Source: Vreelandella jeotgali Hwa (GTDB lineage: Bacteria > Pseudomonadota > Gammaproteobacteria > Pseudomonadales > Halomonadaceae). From it: DNA of 64,000 nucleotides. Position numbers and translations under genes: made by a program. This document shows, one piece after another, positions 6,541-26,312 of this stretch (positions are counted from its first letter, which is position 1; every line of letters starts with the position of its first letter). The notes beneath the pieces were generated by a model. That model was given only the letters and a program-made list of their open reading frames with translations. It searched no databases and was not told the origin of the DNA. The stretch is taken from assembly GCF_000334215.1 (NCBI RefSeq), contig NZ_AMQY01000010.1, positions 62,001-126,000 of the forward strand, read 5' to 3'.

Positions 6541-6717
6541 AGCGGGGGCTCGTGTCATTTTGCGCTCCCCGAAAATCCCGTCAGCATTACTGCGTTGCCT
6601 CACGGCTGCCCTGATCGGCACCGTGGGGCAGGGCACGGCGATGGGCTTTCTTTTTTGGTTTTAATAGTGGATGTACCCGGCGCATGGCATGGCCTGACGG
6701 GGCCCGGCAGGGCGGTG

Positions 6718-6726
6718 TGCTATAAT
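6718..6726 (+). promoter_or_regulatory. Extended -10 promoter of first rpn gene
   Basis: TGC-TATAAT is an ideal extended -10 box 25 bases before the ATG at 6751. Unlike the other rpn promoters it has no TTGACA 13 bases upstream. Confidence 0.6.
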
Positions 6727-6750
6727 GACGGCATTGAAACAGGAGCACGC

Positions 6751-7725
6751 ATGGCCAGTCACTCGCACGATATCGCCTACAAGGAGCTGTTCAGCCACCC
6801 GGAGTTTGTGCAGCAGCTCATCGAAGGCTTTGCGCCCGACGATGTCGCAGCGCTGATGGACTTCTCGTCGCTCCAGCAGCTGAATGGCAACTACGTCACC
6901 CCGCTTGACAAGGAAAAAATCGAGGACGTGGTCTGGTCGGTCAAGGCGACGTGGCAGGGCGTGACCCAGTGGGTGTACGTGTATATCCTGCTGGAGTTTC
7001 AATCCCGCGTGGATTACACGATGCCCGTGCGGATGATGCACTACGTGGCAGGGTTTCACGATCAGCTGATAAAAAACGGCGTGACGACCCCCGGCAAAGG
7101 GTTGCCGCCGGTATTTCCCATCGTGCTGTATAACGGTGCTCAGCCTTGGGCGGCCAAACAGGACGTGTTTGATATGATCACCCCGCGGCCGCCTGGTATT
7201 CTGCAGGCTTATCAGCCGCATCTGCGCTACTATCTCGTGGATGAAGGCCGTTATAGCGATGAGGATCTGGCCGAGCGTAACAGCGTGCTGAGCGGGATTT
7301 TTGGTATCGAAAAGGCAAGGGATGGCCGCGAAGCGCTGCAGAAAGCCGTTGATCGCATCGTGGCGATTATCCAGACCGACCCTGACAAGGAGCGTATCGA
7401 CCGCATTGCTACGCGTTGGATCAAGCGCCACTTTGAACGATGGGGCGATGAAGTCGATCTAAAAGAGCTGAATAGCCTGGTGGAGGATAGAAATATGTTG
7501 GCAGACAATCTGGAAAATTGGGCGAAGCGTGAGCGTGAGGAAGGCGAAGCTAAAGGCCGCATGACGACGCTGGAAAGCACGCTGCGTAAACTCATCAAGC
7601 TGAAGTTCGGAGAGCCGCCGGCCTGGGCTGATGAAAAAATCAAGCAAGCCAATGCCGACCAGCTGGATGATTGGACGGGTAATACTCTGACGGCGGAGAC
7701 GCTGGAAGCGGTATTCAAGGGCTAG
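6751..7725 (+). CDS. Rpn family nuclease (Transposase_31 / YhgA type), rpn1, tail A
   Basis: A 324-residue recombination-promoting nuclease. The N-terminal body (to about residue 245) is of the YhgA/Transposase_31 type with the PD-(D/E)XK residues D59 and E82-F-Q84. Rpn proteins cut DNA, and several are antiphage toxins. A charged linker (AKREREEGEAKGR) leads to a C-terminal tail of the DUF4351 kind (STLRKLIKLKFGEPPAW). AGGAG at 6741 fixes the ATG at 6751. A second SD/ATG inside the gene at 7495 would give a 76-residue C-terminal protein. An 88-base stretch of its tail (7594-7681) is identical to the tail of rpn5, whose body is unrelated in sequence. Confidence 0.85.
   Translation: MASHSHDIAYKELFSHPEFVQQLIEGFAPDDVAALMDFSSLQQLNGNYVTPLDKEKIEDVVWSVKATWQGVTQWVYVYILLEFQSRVDYTMPVRMMHYVAGFHDQLIKNGVTTPGKGLPPVFPIVLYNGAQPWAAKQDVFDMITPRPPGILQAYQPHLRYYLVDEGRYSDEDLAERNSVLSGIFGIEKARDGREALQKAVDRIVAIIQTDPDKERIDRIATRWIKRHFERWGDEVDLKELNSLVEDRNMLADNLENWAKREREEGEAKGRMTTLESTLRKLIKLKFGEPPAWADEKIKQANADQLDDWTGNTLTAETLEAVFKG
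7482..7497 (+). promoter_or_regulatory. Internal ribosome binding site in rpn1
   Basis: GGAGG (7482-7486), 8-base spacer, in-frame ATG at 7495. The product MLADNLENWAKRE... would be a 76-residue C-terminal fragment, the position expected for an intragenic antitoxin (RpnS). Confidence 0.6.
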
Positions 7726-7757
7726 TCCCGCCAAACAGCTTGGTGGAGGATAGAAAT

Positions 7758-7985
7758 ATGTTGGCAGACAATTTGGAAAGCTGGGTGAAGCGTGAGCGTG
7801 AGGAAGGTCGGCAGGAAGGTGAAGTCAAAGGTGAGGCCAATCTGCTGAAAACGATGATCGTTTCCAAGTATGGCGAATGCCCCGAATGGGTACAGGAAAA
7901 GCTGAACGAGGCTGATTCGGAACAGCTGGGCGCTTGGGGGCAGAGGATCTTTCAAGCCAGCACGTTGGAAGGCTTGCTGTTATGA
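7758..7985 (+). CDS. Orphan Rpn C-terminal tail (tail B), candidate stand-alone antitoxin
   Basis: A 75-residue protein starting MLADNLESWVKRE and ending in the tail-B DUF4351 domain (LLKTMIVSKYGECPEWVQEK). It begins 33 bases after the stop of rpn1 and repeats the rpn1 junction sequence, including GGAGG exactly 8 bases before ATG 7758. It lacks any nuclease body. Its DNA is nearly identical to the 3' end of rpn4. If the internally translated tail of Rpn proteins is the antitoxin, this is a ready-made free antitoxin gene; alternatively it is the displaced former tail of rpn1. Confidence 0.7.
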   Translation: MLADNLESWVKREREEGRQEGEVKGEANLLKTMIVSKYGECPEWVQEKLNEADSEQLGAWGQRIFQASTLEGLLL

Positions 7986-8044
7986 GCCGCATCCGCGAGC
8001 TTAGCGCGGATGAAGAAACCCGCCGCCTGGCATTCGCGCACTAA
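7982..8044 (+). other. 20-codon ORF overlapping tail B (MSRIREL...LAFAH)
   Basis: ATG overlaps the tail stop as ATGA. The peptide matches the MSRIRELSADEETRRLAF part of the rpn3 body and then runs into AH-stop and the 3' untranslated region of the rpn2 type. It is probably a recombination scar, but the frame is also intact at 22818, 24689 and 26107. Confidence 0.45.
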
Positions 8045-8078
8045 ATCCCGGCTTATACCGCCTGTACCGCGCATAAAG

Positions 8079-8105
8079 AAGGCAGTCCATCGAGGCTGCC
8101 TTTTT
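8079..8105 (+). terminator. Terminator behind rpn1 and orphan tail
   Basis: AAGGCAG / CTGCCTT stem with five T. The same hairpin recurs behind every rpn unit. Confidence 0.75.
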
Positions 8106-8130
8106 GTATCTGCAACGTGGAGAAAAGCGC

Positions 8131-8155
8131 TTGACAGATGGCGATGTGCTATCAT
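8131..8155 (+). promoter_or_regulatory. rpn2 promoter, TTGACA-N13-TATCAT
   Basis: TTGACA (8131-8136) and TGC-TATCAT (8148-8155). The 13-base spacing is too short for a normal sigma-70 pair, so the extended -10 probably carries the promoter. Confidence 0.5.
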
Positions 8156-8179
8156 GCAGGTATTGAAACAGGAGCCCCC

Positions 8180-9127
8180 ATGAGCGACGCGGATACATCC
8201 CGAAGCAGCGATCACGACAGCCCCTGGAAGATGGCCCTGGATGCCTATTGTCAGGAGTTTTTGGGACTGCTGTTCCCCGATATCGAAAAGCAGGTGGACT
8301 GGTCGCGGGGCTACAGCTTTCTGGATAACGAGCTGCAGAAAATCACCGCCGACGCCAACAGCGGGCGGCGCTATGCCGACAAGCTCATCAGGGTCTACGC
8401 ACGGGACGGCAGCGAAACCTGGGTATTGATTCACGTTGAAGTGCAGGGCGAACCGGAAGACGACTTTGCCGAGCGGATGTATACCTATCAGTACCGGCTA
8501 CGCGATCGCTACGGCATGGATGTGGTGAGTCTGGCGGTGCTGGCCGATACACGCAAAAGCTTCCGGCCCACGACGTTCCACTATGAGCGCTGGGGATGCG
8601 AACTGACCTACACGTTTCCCACGGCCAAGCTGATTGACTGGGAGCAGCACTGGGAAGCGCTGGAGCAAAGCCCCAACGAGATGTCGCTGGTGGTAATGGC
8701 CCAGCTACACGCCAAGCGGTTGAAGGACGGCGCGACGCGCAAGGACACCAAGGTCGCGCTGACGCGCATGCTGTTTGAGCGGGGCTATGAGCGCGCGGAA
8801 GTCGTGCGTCTATTCATCATCATTGACTGGATGATTCAGTTACCGCATGGGCTGGAACCGATCTTCATCGATGAAGTCCATGAGATACAGGAGGAGCAGA
8901 AAATGGCTTATGTGAACACGATAGAGCGCCATGCGCTGGCAAAGGGGCGCCAGGAAGGTGAAACGCGTGGTATGGCGGTTAGCCTGCGTAGTTTGATTAC
9001 TCTCAAGTTTGGTGAGCCGCCGGCTTGGGCTGAGGAGCGCATCGACGCGGCGAGTACTGACCAGCTGAAAGGATGGACAAAAAAGATCCTGACAGCAGAT
9101 TCACTGGAAGCGGTATTCGCGCACTGA
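8180..9127 (+). CDS. Rpn family nuclease-like protein, rpn2 (body family B, tail C)
   Basis: A 315-residue protein whose body (1 to about 240) differs from rpn1 but keeps the Rpn/PD-(D/E)XK signature: D67 in YADKLI, then E87-V-Q89 in HVEVQG. The body is nearly identical to rpn5 and rpn7. The C-terminal tail C (LRSLITLKFGEPPAWAEER) is distinct from the tails of those two. GGAG at 8171 precedes the ATG at 8180. AGGAGG with in-frame ATG 8903 inside the gene predicts a 74-residue C-terminal product. Nuclease and antiphage roles are inferred from the family. Confidence 0.8.
   Translation: MSDADTSRSSDHDSPWKMALDAYCQEFLGLLFPDIEKQVDWSRGYSFLDNELQKITADANSGRRYADKLIRVYARDGSETWVLIHVEVQGEPEDDFAERMYTYQYRLRDRYGMDVVSLAVLADTRKSFRPTTFHYERWGCELTYTFPTAKLIDWEQHWEALEQSPNEMSLVVMAQLHAKRLKDGATRKDTKVALTRMLFERGYERAEVVRLFIIIDWMIQLPHGLEPIFIDEVHEIQEEQKMAYVNTIERHALAKGRQEGETRGMAVSLRSLITLKFGEPPAWAEERIDAASTDQLKGWTKKILTADSLEAVFAH
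8889..8905 (+). promoter_or_regulatory. Internal ribosome binding site in rpn2
   Basis: AGGAGG (8889-8894), 8-base spacer, in-frame ATG 8903 (MAYVNTIERHALAK...). Confidence 0.6.
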
Positions 9128-9171
9128 CTCCCCGCTTATCACGCCTGTATCCTGAAGCATCACGCATAAAG

Positions 9172-9197
9172 AAGGCAGCCCGTCGAGGCTGCCTTTT
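9172..9197 (+). terminator. Terminator behind rpn2
   Basis: AAGGCAG (9172-9178) pairs with CTGCCTT (9189-9195); four T. Confidence 0.7.
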
Positions 9198-9210
9198 GCG
9201 TATCGGTGGA

Positions 9211-9265
9211 GTTTATTCCAGTAGATTCTTTCGGCGGGGCTTGACAGACGAAAATGTGGTAGCAT
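9211..9265 (+). promoter_or_regulatory. rpn3 promoter with conserved upstream element
   Basis: A 30-base conserved leader (GTTTATTCCAGTAGATTC... to 9240, also at 21749 and 26243) abuts TTGACA (9241-9246), N13 and TGG-TAGCAT (9258-9265). Confidence 0.5.
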
Positions 9266-9289
9266 AGGGCTATTACGACAGGAGTTTCC

Positions 9290-10135
9290 ATGAGCGAGCT
9301 ACTCGATCCCACCAACGACTACGTGTTCAAGCGGCTGTTTTCCGAAGCGCCCGATCTGCTGGTCAATCTGATCAACGACCTGCGGCCGGATCTACCCAAT
9401 ATCGCGTCGGTAGAAATCCTCAACCCGAATATCGAGCCGACCGAGCTGAACGGCAAGTACATCATTCTGGACGTACTGGCTCGCGACGGGGACGGCCACT
9501 GCTACAATGTGGAGATACAGGTACGCCGCTATGGTGCCTGGCACAAGCGCGGCTTGTTCTACCTGACCCGCACGCTGGGCAGCCAGCTGGGAACCGGAGA
9601 GGACTATACGGAGCTGCGCGCGTCGGTAGGCTTGCACCTGTTGGACTTCGACTTGTTCACGGACACGGCCGAGGAGCGAGAACAGGCCACCTGGCGTTTC
9701 GAGATGCGGGATTCACGCCAGCCCCAGGTATCGCTTGGGAGCGTGTTGCAGATGAACCTGATCGAAATACACAAGGCGGATCGCCTGGGCTTGCCGGAAG
9801 GCCCGCTGCGCGCCTGGATTACCTTCTTCAAGCACTGGCAGGAGGAATTGACGATGGCCAATGTTGCCCATGAACCGGTTAAGCGTGCCATGAGCCGCAT
9901 CCGCGAGCTTAGCGCGGACGAAGAGACCCGCCGCTTGGCATTCGTGCGTGAGCGTGCGCTGCGGGATGAAGTCTCGTTTTTGAACGATGCCCGCCGAGAA
10001 GGCAGAGAGGAAGGTATAGAGCAGACAGCTCGTAATTTGATCAAGCTGGGTGTCCTCAGTGACGAAAAGGTTGCCGAGGTAACTGGTATGACAGTGGCAG
10101 AGATTAGCGCGCTGCATGCCGAGGATAAGCACTGA
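9290..10135 (+). CDS. Rpn / PDDEXK_2 family nuclease, rpn3 (body family C)
   Basis: A 281-residue protein of the PDDEXK_2 (Rpn-like) family: MSELLDPTNDYVFKRLF start, D61 in IILDVLARDG, E75-I-Q77 in YNVEIQVRR. The C-terminus is not DUF4351 but an HTH-like tail (ARNLIKLGVLSDEKVAEVTGM) common in this family. CAGGAG precedes the ATG. Inside the gene, AGGAGG at 9840 with in-frame ATG 9854 would give a 93-residue C-terminal protein (MANVAHEP...). A segment from about 9822 to 10010 is duplicated immediately downstream with a different tail (10156-10525), direct evidence of tail exchange by recombination within the body. Confidence 0.8.
   Translation: MSELLDPTNDYVFKRLFSEAPDLLVNLINDLRPDLPNIASVEILNPNIEPTELNGKYIILDVLARDGDGHCYNVEIQVRRYGAWHKRGLFYLTRTLGSQLGTGEDYTELRASVGLHLLDFDLFTDTAEEREQATWRFEMRDSRQPQVSLGSVLQMNLIEIHKADRLGLPEGPLRAWITFFKHWQEELTMANVAHEPVKRAMSRIRELSADEETRRLAFVRERALRDEVSFLNDARREGREEGIEQTARNLIKLGVLSDEKVAEVTGMTVAEISALHAEDKH
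9840..9856 (+). promoter_or_regulatory. Internal ribosome binding site in rpn3
   Basis: AGGAGG (9840-9845), 8-base spacer, in-frame ATG 9854. Confidence 0.6.
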
Positions 10136-10155
10136 CTTTGCCTTATCTATAGCCT

Positions 10156-10525
10156 CGCGATCTTCAAGCACTGGCAGGAGGAATTGACGATGGCCAATGT
10201 TGCCCATGAACCGGTTAAGCGTGCCATGAGCCGCATCCGCGAACTTAGCGCGGACGAAGAGACTCGTCGCCTTGCGTTTGTGCGTGAGCGTGCGCTGCGG
10301 GATGAAGTCTCGTTTTTGAATGATGCTCGCCGTGAAGGTATGGAGGAGGGCACCATGACCGCGCTGAAAGGCACGCTGCGCAAGCAAATAACACTCAAGT
10401 TTGGTGAGGTGCCAACGTGAGCTGATCATCGCATACAGCAAGCTGATGATACCGAGCTAAGCGAGTGGGTCGTGCAGATCCTGTCGGCAGATTCACTGGA
10501 AGCGCTGCTTCTGCCTGTATCCTGA
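10156..10525 (+). pseudogene. Orphan rpn3 body fragment joined to tail D, nonsense mutation
   Basis: The segment repeats the end of the rpn3 body from ATCTTCAAGCACTGGCAGG onwards, again with AGGAGG (10176) 8 bases before ATG 10190, then changes to a DUF4351 tail D like that of rpn7. A TGG to TGA change stops the frame at 10420 (after GEVPT). Ignoring that stop, the tail continues in frame (ADHRIQQADDTELSEWVVQ) to a TGA at 10523. As it stands it could make a 76-residue product from ATG 10190 with half a tail. A decayed orphan tail cassette. Confidence 0.7.
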
Positions 10526-10541
10526 AGCATCACGCATAAAA

Positions 10542-10566
10542 AAGGCAGCCCGTTGAAAGCTGCCTG
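10542..10566 (+). terminator. Terminator-like hairpin behind decayed orphan
   Basis: AAGGCAG / CTGCCT stem as behind other rpn units, but the T-run has been lost, in line with decay of this copy. Confidence 0.5.
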
Positions 10567-10596
10567 CCACATATTCCACCGTTCATTTTGGTCCAT

Positions 10597-11793
10597 TCAA
10601 TCGCTTGCGCTGTACATGTCAGCATCGAGCAGAGGCAATAGCGTATTTTCCACGATATTAGCTAAGCGGTTGGAATTGTTGATTAAAACCTGGTTATCCA
10701 AATGAGAGTAACGCTGTGTGGTCGCATAGTTGGCATGCCCCAGGATCTCCTTCACGATATAGAGTGGAATCCCGTTGTTGACCATGTAGCTGGCTGCAGT
10801 ATGACGTAAATCGTGCATCCTGAAGTCGTGTAGGTCGGCTTTTTTACGTGCAGTATTCCATGCGTGATACATATTGACGTAAGGCTTCAGTGTTTCAGGG
10901 TTGGGTAGAATGTAGTCGCACGCTTTCTCTTTTTCCAGATAGCGCAGCATTTTTATCAGGTAATCCGATAGCGGTACGTATCGAGCCCGCCCCGACTTGT
11001 TGTCAGGGATGCACCACTGGTGTTGTTGCCAGTCAATATGTTGCCATTTGGCCTGCAAGACCTCTGTTTTTCTTGCCCCCGTCAGTAGCAGCATGCGGAA
11101 AATGTAGGGCAGTGCCGTCGATTCGGATTCATCGCAAGCCGCCCACAATGCCTTTAGCTCGTCGTCGGACAGATAGCGAGATCGGATGTTGTTTTCCTTT
11201 CGCTTTTCAACTGCAGCCACTGGGTTAGCGGTGACCCCGGGGATCTCCCACTTCAGCGCAAGCGCAAACATGCGGTGAAGGACGTTCATCATGCGGTTGG
11301 TGCTGCTGGGCTTGTGCCGCTGGCCATGGGCTGCTGCCAGGTCAACCATGTGTTTTTTCGAGATCTGGTCAAGATGGAGCTTGCCGAGGACAGGGACGAT
11401 GTGTAGTCGAAACATGGCCTCGTCTACCTCCCAGCTTTTTTTGCTGACCTTGATGTGGGGCAAGTAGCTGTCGGCAATGAAGGCCGCAAGCGTCGTGGTT
11501 TGACGCCTGACCTTTTGTGCCGCAAAAGGGTCTTCGCCCAGCTCCAGCTGAGACAGGTACTGCTTGGCACGTTGACGCGCCTGCTTGAGGCTCACGGCCT
11601 CAGCCCCCAGGAGATGACGGGTTGTATACTTGCCATACGCGGTTTTAAAGCGCAAATAGAAGCTACGCTTTCCGCTGGGCTGGGCCTTCAGCATGAAGCC
11701 AGGCAGTTCTGTGTCACAATAGTCAGTATGCGGCTTGCCTTCATGGCAGGTCGCAGTATCAACCAGTTTTTGGGATAGCTTTACAGCTGGCAT
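10597..11793 (-). CDS. Tyrosine-type integrase of the element
   Basis: A 398-residue phage-type integrase (DUF4102 arm-binding N-terminus, then catalytic domain). Active-site residues are visible: R241 in TGARKTEV, H327-x-x-R330 in HDLRHTAAS, H353 in LGHANYATT and nucleophile Y362 in QRYSHL. GGAGGG lies about 8 bases before ATG 11793, which decides this start over one 11 codons upstream. It probably integrates and excises the 1-12479 element; the nearby flagellin break marks the likely junction. It is divergent from the XRE regulator, about 90 bases apart. Confidence 0.9.
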   Translation of the reverse strand: MPAVKLSQKLVDTATCHEGKPHTDYCDTELPGFMLKAQPSGKRSFYLRFKTAYGKYTTRHLLGAEAVSLKQARQRAKQYLSQLELGEDPFAAQKVRRQTTTLAAFIADSYLPHIKVSKKSWEVDEAMFRLHIVPVLGKLHLDQISKKHMVDLAAAHGQRHKPSSTNRMMNVLHRMFALALKWEIPGVTANPVAAVEKRKENNIRSRYLSDDELKALWAACDESESTALPYIFRMLLLTGARKTEVLQAKWQHIDWQQHQWCIPDNKSGRARYVPLSDYLIKMLRYLEKEKACDYILPNPETLKPYVNMYHAWNTARKKADLHDFRMHDLRHTAASYMVNNGIPLYIVKEILGHANYATTQRYSHLDNQVLINNSNRLANIVENTLLPLLDADMYSASD

Positions 11794-11886
11794 TTTGGCA
11801 CCCTCCGGGTCAGCTTCTACAAACAATATGCTTATAGTATCAGTAACTGTTGGTGCTGTATAGCGCTATCGATAGCCGGTGTCCTT

Positions 11887-12282
11887 ATGACCTCAGACGA
11901 CAATATCCATGCCCACCTGAAAATCGCTGTCGCCATGCGTGCAGTACGTGGTGCACTAGGCCTCAGCCAAAATGACCTGGCTGAGTTAATCGGGATTTCC
12001 AAACCAACGGTGGCCCGAATCGAGACGCTGGAGGTGCCAATGCGCTTTGACGCTTACGCCAACATGATGAAAAACCTGAAAAAAATAGGCGTCAACATAG
12101 ATACAGTGCTGAGCGATAACGTGCAGGTAGAGTTTGAGCCAGAGGCGCTCACGGCTTTGCTAACCAAGCTGTCGGATCAAGGTAAGCGCAGAAAAGACCG
12201 GGCTCAAACAGGGGTGGGGGTCAGGCAAGCGTCGAAGAAAAGCGCTGATGATACAGGCGCAGACGCCTCGGCTCCTGAGTGA
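11887..12282 (+). CDS. XRE-family helix-turn-helix regulator
   Basis: A 131-residue protein with an N-terminal HTH (residues about 18-70: MRAVRGALGLSQNDLAELIGI...) followed by a basic, disordered C-terminus. The match to the HipB/Xre type is clear. Its divergent position beside the integrase suggests that it represses integrase or controls element mobility; this is inferred from context. It is the last gene before the flagellin junction. The 170 bases that follow are AT-rich with no gene. Confidence 0.8.
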   Translation: MTSDDNIHAHLKIAVAMRAVRGALGLSQNDLAELIGISKPTVARIETLEVPMRFDAYANMMKNLKKIGVNIDTVLSDNVQVEFEPEALTALLTKLSDQGKRRKDRAQTGVGVRQASKKSADDTGADASAPE

Positions 12283-12479
12283 AGCAGTCGAAAATAAGAT
12301 AAACAAAGCGGGAAAGCAAAAAAACGTTTAATATCAGATACTTATGTAGATACTGGAGACATTTTCATAACAAGTGATCGGCGCGGAGGAACAAGATAGC
12401 CACAAACAACAAAATAGATGCTAATAGTATCCGCTAAGTTCTTTTTGAATCATGCGCTTACGATGCTACGCTTTCCTCT

Positions 12480-14227: not shown

Positions 14228-14243
14228 GCTGACCCCCTCAACC

Positions 14244-14264
14244 ACCGCCCCACGGGGCGGTTTT
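14244..14264 (+). terminator. Flagellin terminator 1
   Basis: ACCGCCCC-AC-GGGGCGGT followed by TTTT, directly after the flagellin stop. Confidence 0.8.
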
Positions 14265-14279
14265 GAGACCTGGATTTTG

Positions 14280-14305
14280 ACGGGCTCCGAGAGGGGCCCG
14301 TTTTT
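14280..14305 (+). terminator. Terminator 2
   Basis: ACGGGCTCC-GAGA-GGGGCCCGT (one G-T pair) with five T. Tandem to the first. Confidence 0.7.
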
Positions 14306-14328
14306 GTGGCTGACAAAAGGAATGAAAT

Positions 14329-14730
14329 TTGATCAACGATTTTCTTAAGACCGTGCAAGCGGTACTAGATTCGATGGGGCAGAAGTCCCCGATTTTTAAA
14401 TACGAAAAACCACTTATGGAGCACGCTGGCGAAGCTCTAAAGAGTTTTCAGAAAGAGTATGCTGATGATATTTCTAAGTATTTGAAGGAGTTTTTTGATA
14501 GCACAAAGGGATCTGCTAAATCCTTGTTTGAATCAGAGCTTAATGCTGTAAGGAAATCGGTAGAGGAGTTGTTGGGGTATAAAAAAGCAAGGCATAATAA
14601 AGCTATAAGCATAATATTGACTGTCATAGCATCAATCAAAAATATCATTTCTGATTACCTGAAACTTGACCCTTCGGCTAAAGCTGCTATGGAAATGTTT
14701 GAGGAAGCCATTAGCTTTTTGAAGATTTGA
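14329..14730 (+). CDS. Small AT-rich hypothetical protein
   Basis: A 133-residue protein, largely helical and charged, with a short hydrophobic stretch near residue 95 (AISIILTVIASIKNII). Base composition is far more AT-rich than the neighbours, indicating recent acquisition. The start is TTG 14329, about 8 bases after AAAAGGAA; the only nearby ATG opens a very short frame. No family recognised. It sits alone between the flagellin terminators and a repeat copied from upstream of the large methyltransferase gene. Confidence 0.55.
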   Translation: MINDFLKTVQAVLDSMGQKSPIFKYEKPLMEHAGEALKSFQKEYADDISKYLKEFFDSTKGSAKSLFESELNAVRKSVEELLGYKKARHNKAISIILTVIASIKNIISDYLKLDPSAKAAMEMFEEAISFLKI

Positions 14731-14888
14731 AAATCGGGGAGCTGATATTTTTTATCTTTTAGAGATGCTTTTATATTAGTTGACTTCTAGTAAGGCCAGG
14801 TTTTTATATAATGACATCTTCGTCATATTAAAATGCTCTGAGAAGAAGAGCATAGAGAAAGCAGTGCACGACGGCGTTTCAGTGTGCG

Positions 14889-14989
14889 AACGCCACCGTT
14901 CCCACCCCCATATCCAACGCTTGATCCGGGGCTTTTTCTGTTAGTGTTACGCTGACGTTATTTACCAACCAGGATAGGCCGCTGTCATG
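14889..14989. repeat. Direct repeat copy 1 (upstream region of methyltransferase gene)
   Basis: AACGCCACCGTTCCCACCCC... through CAACCAGGATAGGCCGC to an ATG, clearly similar to 15781-15875. The ATG at 14987 opens only a 15-codon frame whose stop overlaps ATG 15034. Confidence 0.75.
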
Positions 14990-15033
14990 TGTCGAATATG
15001 GCCTACAGCAGAAGCGATTGGAAAAGGGGAAAC

Positions 15034-15691: not shown

Positions 15692-15711
15692 GGTGACTCA
15701 ACACCGTTAAA

Positions 15712-15743
15712 CAACAGCTTCGGCCCAAGGGCCGAAGCTGTTG
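15712..15743 (+). terminator. Perfect 15-bp hairpin
   Basis: CAACAGCTTCGGCCC-AA-GGGCCGAAGCTGTTG followed by TCTTA. Symmetric, so it may act in both directions, but the T-run is weak. Confidence 0.65.
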
Positions 15744-15780: not shown

Positions 15781-15875
15781 AACGCCACCGTTCCTACCCC
15801 CATATTCAACGCTTCACCCACGGCATTTCCTGTTAGGCTGACCTTATTTGCCAACCAGGATAGGCCGCCCCCATG
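15781..15875. repeat. Direct repeat copy 2
   Basis: Partner of 14889-14989, ending at the ATG (15873) of the large methyltransferase gene. This is likely the original copy. Confidence 0.75.
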
Positions 15876-18800: not shown

Positions 18801-19892
18801 CTGGCCGACTACGTGGCGGAAGGCTTGCCCGGCGGCACTGCCGCCGCCGAAGCGTCGCGGTTTGATCTGGTGATCGCCAGCGCCGTACACCAGCACCTTC
18901 ACCTGCCCGAAGAAGACTTTGGCGATGCTCTGGCGCGGCTCTGCAAGCCCGGCGGCGTGGTGCTGCTGGAAAGCCACGGCACAAGCCAGCCGCGCCACCC
19001 CGAGCCGGGCTTTACCGACCGCGCCACGGCCGTGGCCAGCGCCGGCTTTAGCGTTATACGCCAGGGCGCGCTATGCGACGACGGCATCAACTACCGCGAG
19101 TTCTGGCTGCTCCAGCGCGAGGCCGAGCCGCAGGCCGCGCCACGGCCCGGCGCCGGTCAGGCGCACCCGCCTCGGCTGCCGGTGATCGAAGGCGATGCGG
19201 CCATTACCCGGCCCATGCACGCCATCTGCCGCGCGGTGGCAGAGGAGGGCGCCTGGTTCAATCCGGATCTGCGTATCCACGCCGACAACGGCAGCCTCTC
19301 GCTTTACGGCACCCCGGGGGCGGCTCGCGCCAGCTATATGCGCGTGCCGATGACCATGATGCCCCAGCTCGAAGGCTTCGATATTGAGGCCAAAAAAGGC
19401 CGGCTGGCCGCCACGCCCAACGGCATGAAGCTGCTGCCCCGCCAGCAGGAAATGCTGGAAGCCATGCTCGAGCTGTTCAATGTCACCGACAAGCTCAACC
19501 TCTGGCAGGCCAGCCTGCCGTTTCTCGCCTGGCAGCAAACCCCGAAGGTGCTGGACTACCTGCTGAGCGCAAGGCCGCACGACAGCAAACTCCGCCGCTT
19601 CCGTAAGCAGCAGCGGGCCGGCGAGCACAGCAAGCTGCTGGTGGATAGCTTCATTGGCTCGCGCCAGTTTGGCCTCAGGCCTCATCACCTGGACGCTATG
19701 GGCGTGAAGGATAACCCCCGGCAACGCAATGTGCTGCTGCCGCTGGTGGACTGCCTCAACCACAGCCTTGAGGCCGAGGGCTTTTATACGCCAATGGCCG
19801 GCGGCAACCCCGTGATGCGTACCTACCACCGGCCAGGGCAATCGCACGTAAAGAAGACGTCTCATTCCAGGCCAAGTAGATGGGCGCGATAG
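15873..19892 (+). pseudogene. Giant multi-domain methyltransferase, 5' part, interrupted by IS
   Basis: The native frame runs to 19833, then 20 codons of IS sequence follow. Regions seen: N-terminal unknown part (1-400); an FkbM-like part at about 420-510 (INTLRLDDIDGLASLDWLIL... GFTFYRLNN), apparently degenerate; TPR-like helices at about 605-870; a class I SAM methyltransferase with LDIGCHQGF near 923; and the beginning of a SET-like lysine methyltransferase with LVDCLNHS near 1291. The SET end lies beyond the IS. Removing the IS and one target copy restores a frame of about 1493 residues. The location behind flagellin suggests flagellin modification (methylation), which is inference. The product lacks its SET C-terminus as it stands. 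Confidence 0.7.
19824..19833. repeat. Target site duplication, left copy
   Basis: TACCACCGGC, repeated at 21072-21081 on the other side of the insertion sequence. Confidence 0.85.
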
Positions 19893-21071
19893 TCGTCAGA
19901 GGTAGCCGCAAGGATACGCTTGGTCTTGAAGCTTCCCCTGCGTTTTATCGGATCCAGACGAATGACATTGAGCGTCAATCGCTTGAGAATGGCCAGATTA
20001 TGTCCCGCATGCGCCGTTCGTGCCCGCATCTGATCATCAGCAAAGGTGACGTCGAGGCACCAGTGTACCTGGTTCTCGATGCGCCAGTGCTGTCGAACTG
20101 CCCTGGCCATTTGCTCGGCATTCGGTTCCAGGCTACTGATGTAATAACGGTAGTCACGTTCCATTCTACCCCGGTACTCGCGTGTTGACTCAATAACGGC
20201 GAAGCAGCGCATGTCCGGCCAGCGATCAGGCTTTGGCAGGCAGTCCAGCGCATCGAACACGTAGCAACGCCGTGTTTCCAGGCGGCCATGTGCCTTGTTT
20301 ACCTCCTCCTTGAATTGATGCGGGGTCTGCGATGCCGGTGCCATCCCGAATTGTTCGAAGAAGTCGTCGATTGCCTCCTTGAGTTGCGGTTGGTTCTCCT
20401 TGATAGCCAGTACATAGTCGGCCCGCCTCTCGCGGATCGCCTGCGCGATCGAAGGCTGAGTGCCCATGGCGTCGATGGTGACAATGCACCCTTCCAACGC
20501 CAGAGTCGCCAGCAGGTCCGGGATGGCGGTCTTCTCGTTAGACCTGGTGGCAGTCGCCTGCTGGCCGAGAATGACGCCAGCATCAGCGGCAAAGGCACTG
20601 ACGAGGTGCAGAGGCGCTTCGCAGGCCCTGGCCGACCGCCGGCTGGTCTTGCCGTCCAGGGCCACAACCTGAGGCGAGAGGTTGGGCAGAACGCCGTCTA
20701 TCCAGCGCCGGAAGGTCACTTCGAACTCGCGTGGATCCATCAAACCGAAGAGCCGGGCAAAAGTGTCATGCGATGGGATCCCATTGGGCAGGTTGAGGTA
20801 TTGACGAAGCCAGGAGAGCTTTTCCCGGGCCCACAATTCAATTTCTTCAAACGTATCGGCGCCAACAAGTACGCCGCAGACGGCGACGGTGAGCAAGTCA
20901 GGCAAGGGGTGCTGCACCTGGCTGGAGTGACGTGGGTCGGTAACGCAGGCGAAGATATCCAGAATCGGTGTGGCCGTCTGATGCATCAGGTCCTCTGGTC
21001 AAATGCCACAGCTATATCGAATCACTCTGCATGATTCAATTGCGAACGAATCTCGACGTGCGATTGCCCTG
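19834..21071. mobile_element. ISAs1-family insertion sequence, complete
   Basis: 1238 bp with terminal inverted repeats CAGGGCAATCGCACGT (left) and its complement (right), one intact transposase gene on the minus strand, and a 10-bp duplication of TACCACCGGC. These are standard features of the ISAs1 family. It interrupts the SET-like domain of the giant methyltransferase gene. Confidence 0.9.
19862..20986 (-). CDS. ISAs1 family transposase
   Basis: A 374-residue DDE transposase, full-length for the family. Visible catalytic segments: VVALDGKTSRR, IVTIDAMGTQ and the HWRIENQVHWCLDVTF region near the C-terminus. An N-terminal DDE_Tnp_1-associated region (IFACVTDPRHSSQVQHPL) is present. There is no internal stop, so the element is probably still mobile. 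Confidence 0.95.
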   Translation of the reverse strand: MHQTATPILDIFACVTDPRHSSQVQHPLPDLLTVAVCGVLVGADTFEEIELWAREKLSWLRQYLNLPNGIPSHDTFARLFGLMDPREFEVTFRRWIDGVLPNLSPQVVALDGKTSRRSARACEAPLHLVSAFAADAGVILGQQATATRSNEKTAIPDLLATLALEGCIVTIDAMGTQPSIAQAIRERRADYVLAIKENQPQLKEAIDDFFEQFGMAPASQTPHQFKEEVNKAHGRLETRRCYVFDALDCLPKPDRWPDMRCFAVIESTREYRGRMERDYRYYISSLEPNAEQMARAVRQHWRIENQVHWCLDVTFADDQMRARTAHAGHNLAILKRLTLNVIRLDPIKRRGSFKTKRILAATSDDYRAHLLGLE

Positions 21072-21602
21072 TACCACCGGCCGGATGCCCACACCGGCGA
21101 GCTGCTGGTGCGTTACAACTACAACGACGCCGTGACGACCACGCTAAGCTACGGCTTTGTGGACGCCGCCAGCCACTGGCTGGCCTCGGTGCCGGTTACG
21201 CTCAGCGTTAGCGGGCAAACGCTGGCGGTGCAGGGGGTTGCCATGCAGTTCAGCGGCACGCTGCCCGCCGCCCTGGCGGATATCCGCCCCTACATCCCCG
21301 GCACTCAGCGCAAAAATTCAAGCCACGCCACCGTCACCAAGCTGATGCTCTGCACCCAAAACCCCCACAGCCTGCGCCGTGTGCTGACGTATCTTGTCCA
21401 CCAGCTGGGCCTTGCCCACACCGATTTCGTCGCCCGCCAGCAGGTCGCCGAGCTGGAACGCCAGCTCATCGAGCAAAACCGCCAGTGGTGGCAAGGCTTC
21501 GCCGCGCTCACCGCCGAGCTGCCCGCTGACCACCCCGCCCGCCAGCTATGCCACCACAGCCTGGGGCTGATCGAGCAGGTCGCCGAAGCGCTGGGCCACT
21601 GA
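21072..21602 (+). pseudogene. Giant methyltransferase, 3' part (SET C-terminus) after IS
   Basis: Starting with the second target copy, the frame reads YHRPDAHTGELLVRYNYNDAV and TLSYGFVD, matching the E-L-x-x-x-Y ... YGFV end of SET-domain lysine methyltransferases, then a helical C-terminal region like the Rubisco-LSMT substrate-binding part. An open frame from 21003, inside the IS, could express this piece alone (199 residues), but it would lack the SAM-binding half. It is in frame with the 5' part once the IS and one target copy are removed. Confidence 0.75.
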
Positions 21603-21748
21603 CCCCGACCCGGAAGATAACGCCGGATGCGTCGCGCCATGAAACCCACCCGCCAGCAAACCCGGCCGGGTGGGGTAGCCGCGCCGCCAGCCGGTAGCCG
21701 CTGCGACGCTCAACCCTTCGCCGAATACGGCCTACGGTATCGGCGGGG

Positions 21749-21802
21749 GTTATTCCGGTAGATTCTTTCGGCGGGGCTTGACAAGCGGGAATGTGCTAGC
21801 AT
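21749..21802 (+). promoter_or_regulatory. rpn4 promoter with conserved upstream element
   Basis: Conserved leader, TTGACA (21778-21783), N13, TGC-TAGCAT (21795-21802). Same design as at rpn3 although the gene body is of another family. Confidence 0.5.
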
Positions 21803-21826
21803 AGGGCCATTACGACAGGAGCGGAT

Positions 21827-22821
21827 ATGGCCACCAACCACCACGACATCGCCTACAAGGAACTGTTCAGCCATCCGGAGTTTGTGCAGCAGCTCATCGA
21901 AGGCTTTGCGCCCGACGACATCGCAGCGCTGATGGACTTCACGTCGCTCAAGCAGCACAACGGGCAGTACGTGACGCCGCTGAATCAGGAAAAGATCGAA
22001 GACGTGGTATGGTCGGTGAAGGCAACGTGGGAAGGCGTGACCCAGCGGGTCTATCTATATATTTTGCTGGAGTTTCAGTCCCGCGTGGGTCCCGCGTGGA
22101 TTACACGATGCCCTTGCGGATGATGCACTACGCGGCAGGATTCCATGATCACCTGATCAAAAACGGCGAGACCACGGCGAGAAAAGGGCTGCCGCCGGTG
22201 TTTCCGATGGTGCTGTACAACGGCTCGAAACCCTGGGCAGCCAGGCAGGACGTGTTCGACATGATTGCCCCACGGCCACCGGGACTCTTGCAGCCCTACC
22301 AGCCACATTTGCGCTACTATCTGGTGGATGAAGGCCGTTATAGCGATGAGGACCTGGCCGAGCGCAACAGCGTACTGAGCGGGATTTTTGGTATCGAAAA
22401 GGCAAGGGAGGGCCGCGAAGCGCTGCAAAAAGCGGTGGATCGCATCGTGGCAATCATCCAGGCCGACCCGGACAAGGATCGAATCGACCGCATCGTCACG
22501 CGCTGGATCAAACGGCATTTTGAACGTTTGGGGGCAAAGGTCGATCTAACAGAGCTGAACAGCCTGGTGGAGGATAGAAATATGTTGGCAGACAATCTGG
22601 AAAATTGGGCGAAGCGCGAGCGGCAGGAAGGTCGGCGGGAAGGTCGGCAGGAAGGTGAAGTCAAAGGTGAGGCCAAGCTGCTGAAAACGATGATCGTTTC
22701 CAAGTATGGCGAATGCCCCGAATGGGTGCAGGAAAAGCTGAACGAGGCTGATTCGGAACAGCTGGGCGCTTGGGGGCAGAAGATCTTTCAAGCCAGTACG
22801 TTGGAAGGCTTGCTGTTATGA
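21827..22821 (+). pseudogene. Rpn nuclease rpn4 (body family A, tail B), frameshifted by 11-bp tandem duplication
   Basis: A homologue of rpn1 throughout the body, joined to tail B (LLKTMIVSKYGECPEW). GTCCCGCGTGG occurs twice in tandem at 22078-22088 and 22089-22099 where rpn1 has it once; the 11 extra bases shift the frame just after the catalytic E-x-Q (LLEFQSR). The N-terminal frame stops near 22123 and the rest is open to 22821. Loss of one copy would restore a full nuclease, so on/off switching by slippage is possible. The internal SD/ATG at 22582, downstream of the shift, is intact and would still make a 79-residue tail protein. Confidence 0.8.
22569..22584 (+). promoter_or_regulatory. 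Internal ribosome binding site in rpn4
   Basis: GGAGG (22569-22573), 8-base spacer, ATG 22582 in the tail frame. Confidence 0.6.
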
Positions 22822-22880
22822 GCCGCATCCGCGAGCTTGGCGCGGATGAAGAAACCCGCCGCCTGGCATTCGCGCACTAA
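22818..22880 (+). other. 20-codon ORF overlapping rpn4 stop
   Basis: Same ATGA overlap and same length as at 7982, with one Ser to Gly change (RELGADEE). Probably a conserved recombination scar. Confidence 0.45.
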
Positions 22881-22915
22881 ATCCCGGCTTATACCGCCTG
22901 TACCGCGCATAAAAG

Positions 22916-22942
22916 AAGGCAGCCCATCGAGGCTGCCTTTTT
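22916..22942 (+). terminator. Terminator behind rpn4
   Basis: AAGGCAG / CTGCCTT stem with five T. Confidence 0.75.
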
Positions 22943-22967
22943 GTATCTGCAACGTGGAGAAAAGCGC

Positions 22968-22992
22968 TTGACAGATGGCGATGTGCTATTAT
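22968..22992 (+). promoter_or_regulatory. rpn5 promoter, TTGACA-N13-TATTAT
   Basis: TTGACA (22968-22973) and TGC-TATTAT (22985-22992); nearly identical to the rpn2 and rpn7 promoters. Confidence 0.5.
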
Positions 22993-23016
22993 TCAGGCAT
23001 TGAAGCAGGAGCCCCC

Positions 23017-23964
23017 ATGAGCGACGCGGACACATCCCGAAGCAGCGATCACGACAGCCCCTGGAAGATGGCCCTGGACGCCTATTTTCAGGAATTTCTG
23101 GGGCTGCTGTTCCCCGATATCGAAAAGCAGGTGGACTGGTCGCGGGGCTACAGCTTTCTGGATAACGAGCTGCAGAAAATTACCGCCGATGCCCATAGCG
23201 GGCGGCGCTATGCCGACAAGCTCATCAGGGTCTACGCCCGGGACGGCAGCGAAACCTGGGTGCTGATTCACGTTGAAGTGCAGGGCGAACCGGAAGACGA
23301 GTTTGCCGAGCGGATGTATACCTATCAGTACCGGCTACGCGACCGCTACGGCATGGATGTGGTGAGTCTGGCGGTGCTGGCCGATACCCGCGAGACCTTC
23401 CGGCCCACGACGTTTCACTATGAGCGCTGGGGATGCGAGCTGACCTATACATTCCCCACGGCCAAGCTGATTGACTGGGAGCAGCACTGGGAAGCGCTGG
23501 AACAAAGCCCCAACGAAATGTCACTGGTGGTGATGGCCCAGCTCCACGCCAAGCGGTTGAAGGACGGCGCGACGCGCAAGGATACCAAGGTCGCGCTGAC
23601 GCGCCTGCTGTTTGAGCGGGGCTATGAACGCGCGGAAGTCGTGCGTCTATTCAACATCATTGACTGGATGATTCAGCTGCCGCACGGGTTGGAACCGATA
23701 TTTTCTCATGAGGTCGATGAGATACAGGAGGAAAAGAAAATGGCTTATGTGAATACGTTGGAGCGCCAGGCGTTGGCCAAAGAACGTCAGGAAGGGCGCA
23801 TGACCGCACTGGAAAGCACGCTACGCAAACTTATCAAGCTGAAGTTCGGAGAGCCGCCGGCCTGGGCTGATGAAAAAATCAAGCAAGCCAATGCCGACCA
23901 GCTGGATGATTGGACGGGTAGCATTCTGACGGCGGAGAAGCTGGAAGCGGTGTTCACGGACTGA
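23017..23964 (+). CDS. Rpn family nuclease-like protein, rpn5 (body family B, tail A)
   Basis: A 315-residue protein with a body nearly identical to rpn2 and rpn7 (D67, E87-V-Q89), but ending in tail A (LRKLIKLKFGEPPAWADEK), which elsewhere is attached to the unrelated rpn1 body. Bases 23833-23920 are identical to 7594-7681 of rpn1. GCAGGAG precedes ATG 23017. Internal AGGAGG and ATG 23740 would give a 74-residue C-terminal protein. Nuclease and antiphage roles are inferred from the family. Confidence 0.8.
   Translation: MSDADTSRSSDHDSPWKMALDAYFQEFLGLLFPDIEKQVDWSRGYSFLDNELQKITADAHSGRRYADKLIRVYARDGSETWVLIHVEVQGEPEDEFAERMYTYQYRLRDRYGMDVVSLAVLADTRETFRPTTFHYERWGCELTYTFPTAKLIDWEQHWEALEQSPNEMSLVVMAQLHAKRLKDGATRKDTKVALTRLLFERGYERAEVVRLFNIIDWMIQLPHGLEPIFSHEVDEIQEEKKMAYVNTLERQALAKERQEGRMTALESTLRKLIKLKFGEPPAWADEKIKQANADQLDDWTGSILTAEKLEAVFTD
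23726..23742 (+). promoter_or_regulatory. Internal ribosome binding site in rpn5
   Basis: AGGAGG (23726-23731), 8-base spacer, in-frame ATG 23740. Confidence 0.6.
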
Positions 23965-24008
23965 CTCTCCGCTTCTTCCGCCTATACCTTAAGCACCGCG
24001 CATAAAAG

Positions 24009-24034
24009 AAGGCAGCCCGTTGAAGCTGCCTTCT
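24009..24034 (+). terminator. Terminator behind rpn5
   Basis: AAGGCAG / CTGCCTT stem. It abuts the truncated rpn6 copy directly. Confidence 0.65.
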
Positions 24035-24035
24035 T

Positions 24036-24689
24036 GACCTCCTGGCGCGTGATGCGGAAGGCCACTGCTACAATGTCGAGATACAGGTACGTCGCTATGG
24101 TGCCTGGCACAAGCGAGGCCTGTTCTACCTGACCCGCACGCTGGGTAGCCAGCTGGGAGCCGGAGAGGATTACACGGAGCTGCGCGCGTCGGTGGGCTTG
24201 CACCTGCTGGACTTCGACTTGTTCACCGACACGGCAGCCGAGCGCGAGCAGGCCACCTGGCGTTTCGAGATGCGGGATTCACGCCAGCCCCAGGTGTCGC
24301 TTGGGAACGTGTTGCAGATGAACCTGATCGAAATACACAAGGCGGATCGCCTGGGCTTGCCGGAAGGCCCGTTGCGCGCCTGGATCACCTTCTTCAAACA
24401 CTGGCAGGAGGAATTGACGATGGCCAATGTCGCCCATGAACCGGTCAAGCGTGCCATGAGCCGCATCCGCGAGCTTAGCGCGGATGAAGAGACCCGCCGC
24501 CTGGCGTTTGTACGCGAGCGCGCGCTGCGGGATGAAGTGTCGCTGCTGAATGATGCGAAGCGTGAAGGGCGCGAAGAAGTGGCAAGGAATTTGATTGAAA
24601 TGAAGCTGCTGACGGATGCCCAAATCGCGAGCGCTTCGGGCCTTTCTGAAGCTGAAATTGAAGTGCTCCGGAATGAGGTAACACATTGA
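24036..24689 (+). pseudogene. Rpn nuclease rpn6 (body family C), 5'-truncated
   Basis: Coding homology to rpn3 starts abruptly at its D61 region (DLLARDAEGHCYNVEIQVRR) directly after the rpn5 terminator. The first 60 codons, start and promoter are gone, so no full nuclease can be made. The rest is open to 24689 and ends in an HTH-like tail (ARNLIEMKLLTDAQIASASG) that has diverged from that of rpn3. The internal AGGAGG and ATG 24420 are intact, so an 89-residue C-terminal protein could still be made. Confidence 0.75.
24406..24422 (+). promoter_or_regulatory. Internal ribosome binding site in rpn6
   Basis: AGGAGG (24406-24411), 8-base spacer, in-frame ATG 24420 (MANVAHEP...). Confidence 0.6.
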
Positions 24690-24757
24690 TGGCCATGAAC
24701 CACATCCGCGAACTCAGCGCGGACGAAGAACCCCGCCGCCTGGCATTCGCGCACTAA
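24689..24757 (+). other. 22-codon ORF overlapping rpn6 stop (MAMNHIREL...LAFAH)
   Basis: TGATG overlap with rpn6. A divergent version of the scar peptide, yet still open to the same AH-stop. Confidence 0.4.
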
Positions 24758-24791
24758 ATCCCGGCTTATACCGCCTTTACCGCGCATAAAG

Positions 24792-24817
24792 AAGGCAGCC
24801 CATCGAGGCTGCCTTTT
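24792..24817 (+). terminator. Terminator behind rpn6
   Basis: AAGGCAG / CTGCCTT stem with five T. Confidence 0.75.
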
Positions 24818-24843
24818 TGTATCTGCAACGTGGAGAAAAGCGC

Positions 24844-24868
24844 TTGACAGATGGCGATGTGCTATTAT
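24844..24868 (+). promoter_or_regulatory. rpn7 promoter, TTGACA-N13-TATTAT
   Basis: TTGACA (24844-24849) and TGC-TATTAT (24861-24868), same layout as rpn2 and rpn5. Confidence 0.5.
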
Positions 24869-24892
24869 TCAGGCATTGAAGCAGGAGCCCCC

Positions 24893-25864
24893 ATGAGCGA
24901 CGCGGATACATCCCGAAGCAGCGATCACGACAGCCCCTGGAAGATGGCCCTGGACGCCTATTGTCAGGAATTTCTGGGGCTGCTGTTCCCCGATATCGAA
25001 AAGCAGGTGGACTGGTCGCGGGGCTATAGTTTTCTGGATAACGAGCTGCAGAAAATCACCGCTGACGCCAACAGCGGGCGGCGTTATGCCGACAAGCTCA
25101 TCAGGGTCTACGCCCGGGACGGCAGCGAAACCTGGGTGCTGATTCATGTCGAGGTTCAGGGCGAACCGGAAGACGACTTTGCCGAGCGGATGTATACCTA
25201 TCAGTACCGGCTACGCGACCGCTACGGCATGGATGTGGTGAGTCTGGCGGTGCTGGCCGATACCCGCGAGACCTTCCGGCCCACGACGTTTCACTATGAG
25301 CGCTGGGGATGCGAACTGACCTACACGTTTCCCACGGCCAAGCTGATTGACTGGGAGCAGCACTGGGAAGCGCTGGAACAAAGCCCCAACGAGATTTCCC
25401 TGGTGGTAATGGCCCAGCTACACGCCAAGCGGTTGAAGGACGGCGCGACGCGCAAGGACACCAAGGTCGCGCTGACGCGCCTGCTGTTTGAGCGGGGCTA
25501 TGAACGCGCGGAAGTCGTGCGTCTATTCAACATCATTGACTGGATGATTCAGATACCGCATGGGCTGGAACCGATCTTCATCGATGAAGTCCATGAGATA
25601 CAGGAGGAGAAGAAAATGGCCTATGTGAACACGATAGAGCGGCATGCGCTGGCAAAAGGGCGTCAGGAAGGTGAAGTCAAAGGTGAAGTCAAAGGCCGCA
25701 TGACGACGCTGGAAAGTACGCTGCGCAACCAGATCAAGTTGAAGTTTGGTGAGGTGCCTGCCTGGGCAGATCAGCGCATTCAGCAAGCCGATGACGCTGA
25801 GCTAAGCGAGTGGGTTGTTCAGATCCTGTCGGTAGATTCACTGGAAGCGCTGCTGAACGCCTGA
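24893..25864 (+). CDS. Rpn family nuclease-like protein, rpn7 (body family B, tail D)
   Basis: A 323-residue protein, the third copy of the family-B body (D67, E87-V-Q89 intact). It carries tail D (LRNQIKLKFGEVPAWADQR), shared with the decayed orphan at 10156. The linker contains a duplicated GEVKGEVKG unit. GCAGGAG precedes ATG 24893; internal AGGAGG and ATG 25616 predict an 82-residue C-terminal product. Followed after 3 bases by an orphan tail B. Confidence 0.8.
   Translation: MSDADTSRSSDHDSPWKMALDAYCQEFLGLLFPDIEKQVDWSRGYSFLDNELQKITADANSGRRYADKLIRVYARDGSETWVLIHVEVQGEPEDDFAERMYTYQYRLRDRYGMDVVSLAVLADTRETFRPTTFHYERWGCELTYTFPTAKLIDWEQHWEALEQSPNEISLVVMAQLHAKRLKDGATRKDTKVALTRLLFERGYERAEVVRLFNIIDWMIQIPHGLEPIFIDEVHEIQEEKKMAYVNTIERHALAKGRQEGEVKGEVKGRMTTLESTLRNQIKLKFGEVPAWADQRIQQADDAELSEWVVQILSVDSLEALLNA
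25602..25618 (+). promoter_or_regulatory. Internal ribosome binding site in rpn7
   Basis: AGGAGG (25602-25607), 8-base spacer, in-frame ATG 25616. Confidence 0.6.
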
Positions 25865-25867
25865 GTC

Positions 25868-26110
25868 ATGGGCGGGCCGGAGAAGAAAATGGCTTATGTG
25901 AATACGTTGGAGCGCCAGGCGTTGGCTAAAGAACGTCAGGTAGGTGAAGTCAAAGGCGAGGCCAAGCTGCTGAAAAAAATGATTATTTCCAAGTATGGCG
26001 ACTGTCCCGAGTGGGTGCAGGAAAAGCTGAACGAGGCTGATTCAGAACAGTTGGGTGCTTGGGGGCAGAAGATCTTTCAATCCAGCACGTTGGAAGGCTT
26101 GCTGTTATGA
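25868..26110 (+). CDS. Orphan Rpn C-terminal tail (tail B), candidate stand-alone antitoxin
   Basis: An 80-residue frame, or 73 residues from ATG 25889, whose MAYVNTLERQALAKERQ opening equals the family-B junction and whose end is tail B. It thus joins a family-B junction to a tail otherwise found on family-A genes. GGAG lies 6 bases before ATG 25889, so the ribosome site is weaker than in the other copies. It follows rpn7 by 3 bases, so it could be translated from the rpn7 message. Free antitoxin or displaced former tail. Confidence 0.65.
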   Translation: MGGPEKKMAYVNTLERQALAKERQVGEVKGEAKLLKKMIISKYGDCPEWVQEKLNEADSEQLGAWGQKIFQSSTLEGLLL

Positions 26111-26169
26111 GCCGCATCCGCGAGCTTAGCGCGGATGAAGAAACCCGCCGCCTGGCGTTCGCGCACTAA
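26107..26169 (+). other. 20-codon ORF overlapping orphan tail stop
   Basis: ATGA overlap; peptide identical to that at 7982. Confidence 0.45.
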
Positions 26170-26203
26170 ATCCCGGCTTATACCGCCTTTACCGCGTATA
26201 AAG

Positions 26204-26230
26204 AAGGCAGTCCATCGAGGCTGTCTTTTT
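26204..26230 (+). terminator. Terminator behind second orphan tail
   Basis: AAGGCAG / CTGTCTT stem with one mismatch and five T. Confidence 0.65.
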
Positions 26231-26242
26231 CGTATCGGTGAG

Positions 26243-26274
26243 GTTTATTCCAGTAGATTCTTTCGGCGGGGCTT
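26243..26274 (+). repeat. Third copy of rpn upstream element, not followed by TTGACA
   Basis: Matches 9211-9242 but breaks off just before the promoter and runs into unrelated DNA, marking the right edge of the second rpn cluster. Confidence 0.6.
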
Positions 26275-26312
26275 TTCGCCTCGTACCGGCGAGTAAAAAC
26301 AACAAGGGCATC

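Follow-up and report, generated by a model that had tools for sequence, protein, structure and literature searches.

Rpn toxin genes of Vreelandella jeotgali with exchangeable C-terminal tails and putative displaced antitoxin genes

Why do toxin genes with near-identical bodies end in different C-terminal tails, and why do short genes carrying such tails stand behind some of them? Both questions are raised by the seven rpn genes that form two clusters (6751-10518 and 21827-26110) on a stretch of 64,000 nucleotides (nt) from Vreelandella jeotgali Hwa (contig NZ_AMQY01000010.1, positions 62,001-126,000; genome 2.85 Mb), hereafter called the window. Rpn loci are toxin-antitoxin systems, in which the full-length protein (RpnL), a toxic DNA endonuclease, is blocked by RpnS, its own C-terminal portion translated from an internal start (Zhong et al. 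2023, PMC10327210); Kingston 2017 (PMC5350276) terms the Rpn tail variable. We consider it probable that the clusters consist of three Rpn nuclease-type bodies joined to exchangeable tails at one fixed position shortly after an internal ribosome-binding site and start codon, and that the short genes (hereafter orphans) are likely displaced RpnS-type antitoxins, since in them the body's own internal start is joined to a different tail. The exchange of tails itself is well supported by sequence comparison, and the orphans may in addition have a protective role.

Bodies and tails in the window

The seven genes, all on the forward strand, fall by nucleotide identity into the three bodies that had been claimed for them in the original prediction: body A in rpn1 (6751-7725) and rpn4 (21827-22821), which are 85% identical; body B in rpn2 (8180-9127), rpn5 (23017-23964) and rpn7 (24893-25864), with 93-96%; and body C in rpn3 (9290-10135) and rpn6 (24036-24689), with 93% over the part kept by rpn6. 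Body A matches the Rpn family PF04754 (91.4 bits, cut-off 21; E 7.5e-26 for rpn1), and body C matches both PF12784 (112.6 bits, cut-off 27.4; E 3.1e-32 for rpn3) and TIGR01784 (115 bits, cut-off 52.1). Body B gave no Pfam match up to E 0.1; among its relatives (120 of 1512 matches listed) two are named RpnC/YadD family and some Rpn family or TIGR01784, the closest named ones among the matches listed belonging to Vreelandella and Halomonas. The D...E-x-Q active-site pattern, likewise predicted, is present in all three bodies (EFQ in A, EVQ in B and EIQ in C), and the body-B columns D67, E87 and Q89 are invariant in 45 sequences; for RpnA, the residues named are D63, E82 and Q84 (PMC5350276). 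PADLOC returned no match at E 0.01 for the six window proteins tried, nor did a PDB sequence search with rpn1 and rpn7 up to E 1. Five of the seven bodies are intact: in rpn4 an 11-nt tandem repeat (22078-22099) shifts the frame after codon 87, and rpn6 lacks its 5' end. The internal small reading frame, by contrast, is uninterrupted in each of the seven genes and in two orphans out of three. In rpn4, the predicted toxin part is broken and the predicted antitoxin part (i.e. the internal small frame) still open.

The tails do not follow these bodies. Tail A is shared by rpn1 (body A, tail from 7561) and rpn5 (body B, tail from 23800), with 91% nucleotide identity and an exact and maximal match of 88 bases (7594-7681 = 23833-23920). 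Tail B ends rpn4 (body A, from 22669) and recurs in two orphans, o1 behind rpn1 (7734-7985; 97% identical) and o3 behind rpn7 (25868-26110; 92%), and tail D ends rpn7 (body B, from 25700) and recurs in orphan o2 behind body C of rpn3 (10160-10518; 82%), where it contains a TGA (10418-10420). The near-identical body-B genes rpn2, rpn5 and rpn7 carry tails C (from 8972), A and D, respectively. All these combinations had been pointed out in the original prediction, which also expected that bodies and tails, when compared separately, would conflict if cassettes had been exchanged; such a conflict is seen in the window and, as set out below, among its relatives. The remaining two genes, rpn3 and rpn6, end in tails of a helix-turn-helix (HTH) class (from 10028 and 24582).

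An in-frame internal Shine-Dalgarno (SD) motif with ATG was found in all ten units of the window, the start lying at 7495 in rpn1, 8903 in rpn2, 9854 in rpn3, 22582 in rpn4 (within the intact small frame), 23740 in rpn5, 24420 in rpn6 and 25616 in rpn7, and at 7758, 10190 and 25889 in o1, o2 and o3, each of which has an SD and ATG of its own. The motif is GGAGG with a spacing of 8 in nine of the ten units (GGAGG-8-ATG in rpn1, for example) and GGAG in o3. These internal starts, at which the orphans begin as well, are not part of the original prediction, and neither is the short body-C linker remnant described further below.

Bodies, tails and their joint among relatives

Relatives were surveyed with two tail profiles, A2 (DUF4351-like) and A1 (HTH-like), these class names being coined in this analysis. 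Within the genus, A2 matched in 23 and A1 in 35 of 61 genomes; within the family, in at least 61 and at least 93 of 250; and at class level 29 of 274 genomes had a match. The 168 loci analysed (window included) were chosen among the matches listed, not every one of which was fetched, and their counts are those of no random sample; they contain 284 tails, namely 142 on full-length genes, 128 in short frames and 14 fitting neither rule.

Both tail classes occur on all bodies (HTH/DUF4351: A 46/32, B 11/13, C 16/11, other 2/11). When bodies and tails were compared pairwise in 135 genes (seven of the 142, with short bodies, being left out), 11 of the 81 body pairs that are at least 95% identical had tails of different class, and 61 of the 137 tail pairs that are at least 90% identical sat on dissimilar bodies (a category that includes some truncated ones), 45 of these tail pairs linking bodies of different class (A, B or C). 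In a quick tree of body B (110 proteins of 120 listed, 1512 found) the tail class switches at least 14 times, and in one locus (L094) neighbouring body-B and body-A genes end in an identical 41-residue tail. In L048 (genome G009), flank and body A align to the window at 86% as far as 7547, which is 14 nt short of tail A, and a different tail follows; next come remnants of the body-A linker, one of them with tail D attached, and then a body-B gene with tail D and an orphan, and the rpn7/o3 junction is near-identical there, yet the orphan has another tail. An insertion sequence (IS)-like insertion at 3140-4700 of L048 interrupts a displaced body-A linker remnant. The same site in L043 is occupied by a body-C gene with an HTH-class tail and then by an orphan in which linker C is joined to a DUF4351-class tail. 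Outside the family, L295 (from another family) is an array with two kinds of body or linker that have one common tail, with orphans between them, and L296 holds a plain copy of the upstream tail.

The internal start is also found in these relatives: a strict SD motif with ATG is present in 106 of the 142 full-length genes, versus 0 of 142 when the identical search is run 80 codons further upstream, and looser SD motifs in 137, versus 18 in the upstream control. The toxins encoded in the window and in its relatives are predicted to cut DNA in defence, and each tail probably serves as its toxin's own antitoxin too.

Where body homology ends was determined in 123 same-body/different-tail pairs (ungapped): it extends past the internal start and, in the median, stops 6 nt short of the tail (quartiles -16 to +5), the joint falling in a zone of 4-residue repeats. 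The distance between internal start and tail varies by four-residue steps, with 87 of 91 genes at their group's commonest value modulo 4. AlphaFold2 models of rpn7 and P0046 (mean predicted local distance difference test scores, pLDDT, of 80.8 and 76.9, lower in parts of the joint zone) place the joint in one long helix (246-285 in rpn7, 247-281 in P0046) leading to a small helical tail. We infer that the 12-nt repeats steer recombination in register. The tails themselves are scarcely covered in Foldseek and VIA-align rows, and the DUF4351-class tail profile found no convincing relative in PDB. The HTH-class profile A1 matches PDB 8vd6 (named CAP REPEAT) at E 5.2e-10; the structure of RpnA-S is PDB 7TH0 (PMC10327210).

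Origin of the orphans

Each window orphan begins with the internal start that belongs to the type of body immediately before it, and ends in another tail: o1 behind rpn1 has the start and linker of body A (87-91% identical to body-A genes) and tail B (64%, gapped, to the tail of rpn1), o2 behind rpn3 has those of body C (90% to rpn3) and tail D, and o3 behind rpn7 has those of body B and tail B. In the survey, a short tail gene stands directly behind a full-length gene in 24 cases (the others of the 128 short frames are chains or fragments, or the sequence retrieved for the locus contains no full-length gene immediately before them); the linker matches the upstream gene in 20 of the 24 and the tail differs from it in 20. 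Among these 20 unmatched orphans the linker matches in 16, whereas shuffling gave a mean of 5.0 and a maximum of 12 (20,000 shuffles, in which all pairs count as independent; L192 and L194 represent the same array from two genomes, and three of the pairs come from L044). An earlier pass confined to the genus gave a linker match in 9 of 10. Unmatched tails behind rpn genes are probably left over from earlier swaps. A protein database search for stand-alone relatives of o1 returned only o1 and o3 themselves, and tail B as a stand-alone protein looks rare in that database; among full-length genes, those in L051 and L188 have the tails closest to it, at about 66-73% identity.

Several observations weigh against exchangeable tails with displaced RpnS-type antitoxins. 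Body B stays under every curated family cut-off (17.4-19.9 bits against TIGR01784, where 52.1 are needed), and body A with HTH tails occurs in two registers (28 and 15 of 45). The linker of o3 is closer to rpn5 (97%) than to rpn7 (83%), and therefore the history at rpn7 is no simple displacement, rpn7 or o3 having changed its linker too. Four of the 20 unmatched orphans have a non-matching linker (L044 at 8945, with linker A behind body B; L240, with linker C behind body B; L206, weak; and L176, a fragment), and four of the 24 tandem orphans simply duplicate the upstream tail, as in the cases described in PMC10327210. Lastly, o2 is broken by its in-tail TGA, the orphan of L066 is cut short, and a clear start is lacking in many of the survey's short tail frames, several orphans included.

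The last of these points, together with L048 (where the linker remnant is cut by the insertion and the orphan is frame-broken), are what one would expect if tail exchange were real and the orphans were functionless debris of recombination, decaying after the swap. We regard this explanation as unlikely. Both o1 and o3 are intact, with SD and ATG, and a solitary orphan with linker A, which has no adjacent toxin gene, stands behind the same gene in L057, L058, L060 and L195, intact in four species (76 codons each; SD GGAGG, or GAAGG in L057); it is this orphan that is truncated in L066. Its ratio of nonsynonymous to synonymous changes (pN/pS) is 0.04-0.28, and five of the six pairs, which are not independent of one another, are non-neutral at P <= 0.0012; the sixth (L058/L195), with six changes only, shows no departure from neutrality. 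The solitary orphan is under purifying selection, which therefore supports a function without an adjacent toxin gene. Pooled pN/pS values for orphan tails (0.165 in 71 orphan/orphan pairs and 0.150 in 83 orphan/full pairs) were set aside, because divergence may predate orphaning and the pairs overlap.

Far less probable is an origin of the orphans as tandem copies of the upstream 3' end whose tails diverged in place. It has a known precedent in rpnE/ypaA of E. coli and would fit the four pairs of 24 with the same tail. The unmatched orphans, however, keep high-identity linkers and have a tail of another kind or class, and orphan tails have close relatives on other bodies (87% in L043, 90% in L189 and 87% in L054); in-place divergence was rejected because linkers stay alike while tails match those of other bodies. 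Whole-gene duplication and loss with no tail exchange, for which one could cite the 93-96% identity of the body-B genes and the promoter-side sequence they have in common, is refuted by the body/tail conflict in the window, in the 135 genes and on the body-B tree (at least 14 changes), and its probability is negligible.

Exchange of a nested antitoxin and its parallels

If tails have been exchanged and the antitoxins within them displaced, a foreign tail would recombine onto a body in register, through the conserved linker with its 12-nt repeats and perhaps through a shared terminator as well (a terminator-like repeat 3' of the tails, at 9143-9199 on the forward strand, has six copies across the clusters, in families D11/D12, its role being presumed). 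Because the antitoxin is nested in the toxin gene, a single event would alter the toxin's regulatory tail and the antitoxin together and immediately produce a matched pair. The former linker-tail piece would persist downstream as a separate gene, still neutralising the toxin with the old tail, and if the two linker copies recombined, the new tail would be lost and the old one fused to the body again. The linkers of rpn1 and o1 are 87-nt repeats with 83% identity, 263 nt apart, and the arrangement of rpn4 is what a deletion between linkers of the rpn1 and o1 types would give. The rpnE alleles of E. coli resemble such a re-fusion: in K-12 the rpnE and ypaA small proteins both start at AAAAGGAGAGATTAATG and the ypaA tail is of rpnE's own kind (thus differing from the window in having no foreign tail), and strains EC20 and 10159 have a single rpnE ending in the ypaA tail, as a deletion between the copies would yield. 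Fusions of this type are mentioned by Zhong et al. (PMC10327210).

The window genes share with the published RpnL/RpnS systems (PMC10327210) a variable tail, an SD motif and start codon within the gene, a linker helix with 4-residue repeats, the occurrence of rpn arrays and stand-alone rpnS genes from the same start; their bodies, too, are predicted to be of PD-(D/E)XK type. They differ from them in that tails exchange between bodies, across two tail classes, and in that stand-alone genes carry another tail than the upstream gene. The stand-alone genes described so far (ypaA and a second rpnCS) are copies of the upstream gene's own tail, and the preprint text has only downstream copies clustering with the upstream tail, deletions and fusions (PMC10327210); such clustering is not seen for the three window orphans or for 20 of the 24 tandem pairs. 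The original prediction knew of no description of tail shuffling with orphan cassettes for Rpn genes, a claim that has to be narrowed, as the Rpn toxin-antitoxin system and stand-alone rpnS genes behind rpn genes were both known. What appears to be new is that the tail bearing the antitoxin is swapped from one toxin body to another and that putative displaced antitoxin genes remain after the swap. We found no title or abstract on Rpn tail exchange or on orphans with foreign tails, supplements and the PNAS version of Zhong et al. being outside the scope of this search; PMC12707154, in the part drawn on here, merely cites the Rpn system.

RpnA-S and RpnB-S neutralise only their cognate RpnL, and RpnC-S with one additional 4-residue repeat loses its effect on RpnC (PMC10327210). 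We tentatively propose, as a possibility of somewhat less than even chance, that Rpn loci work as a switch. A single recombination in the repeat zone would swap the toxin's regulatory tail and its nested antitoxin without their ever being mismatched, and displaced RpnS genes would be kept as an antitoxin memory against RpnL variants on incoming DNA (even at sites that have no toxin gene) and as a reserve of tails available for re-fusion by deletion. Where toxin and antitoxin are encoded separately, the two genes have to co-evolve. With a nested antitoxin, one exchange would be enough to create a new matched pair, and this could explain the high variability of Rpn tails and the existence of rpn arrays. 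Moreover, small DUF4351 genes listed as of unknown function are likely displaced antitoxins, and the solitary orphan makes the question of an antitoxin kept without its toxin directly testable.

In polymorphic toxins (contact-dependent inhibition, CDI, and Rhs systems) a conserved N-terminal part is joined to an exchangeable C-terminal part, with displaced tips and orphan immunity genes. The likeness to such toxins that had been suggested for the window holds for the architecture, including older modules that remain downstream. The roles, on the other hand, are reversed, because the tail in known Rpn systems is not a toxic tip but the antitoxin, translated from a start within the toxin gene: the catalytic part is retained, and what is swapped is nested in the toxin gene and not a separate antitoxin.

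A short remnant of a body-C linker with a tail-C-like end lies downstream of all three copies of tail B and of rpn6 (7982-8044 on the forward strand; further copies at 22818-22880, 26107-26169 and about 24689-24757), and is possibly an older displaced tail. Between the two rpn clusters lie what we take to be an integrase (10597-11826) and an IS transposase (19862-20986), and the gene names radC and HAD-type hydrolase are likewise our presumption from sequence. Direct repeats at 14889-14989 and 15781-15875 (45-56 nt, 86-87% alike; D16 and D17) bracket a small gene region between the clusters. Two more body-A rpn genes, with DUF4351-class tails, are found elsewhere in the same genome (C1:36548-36814 and C21:9711-9968).

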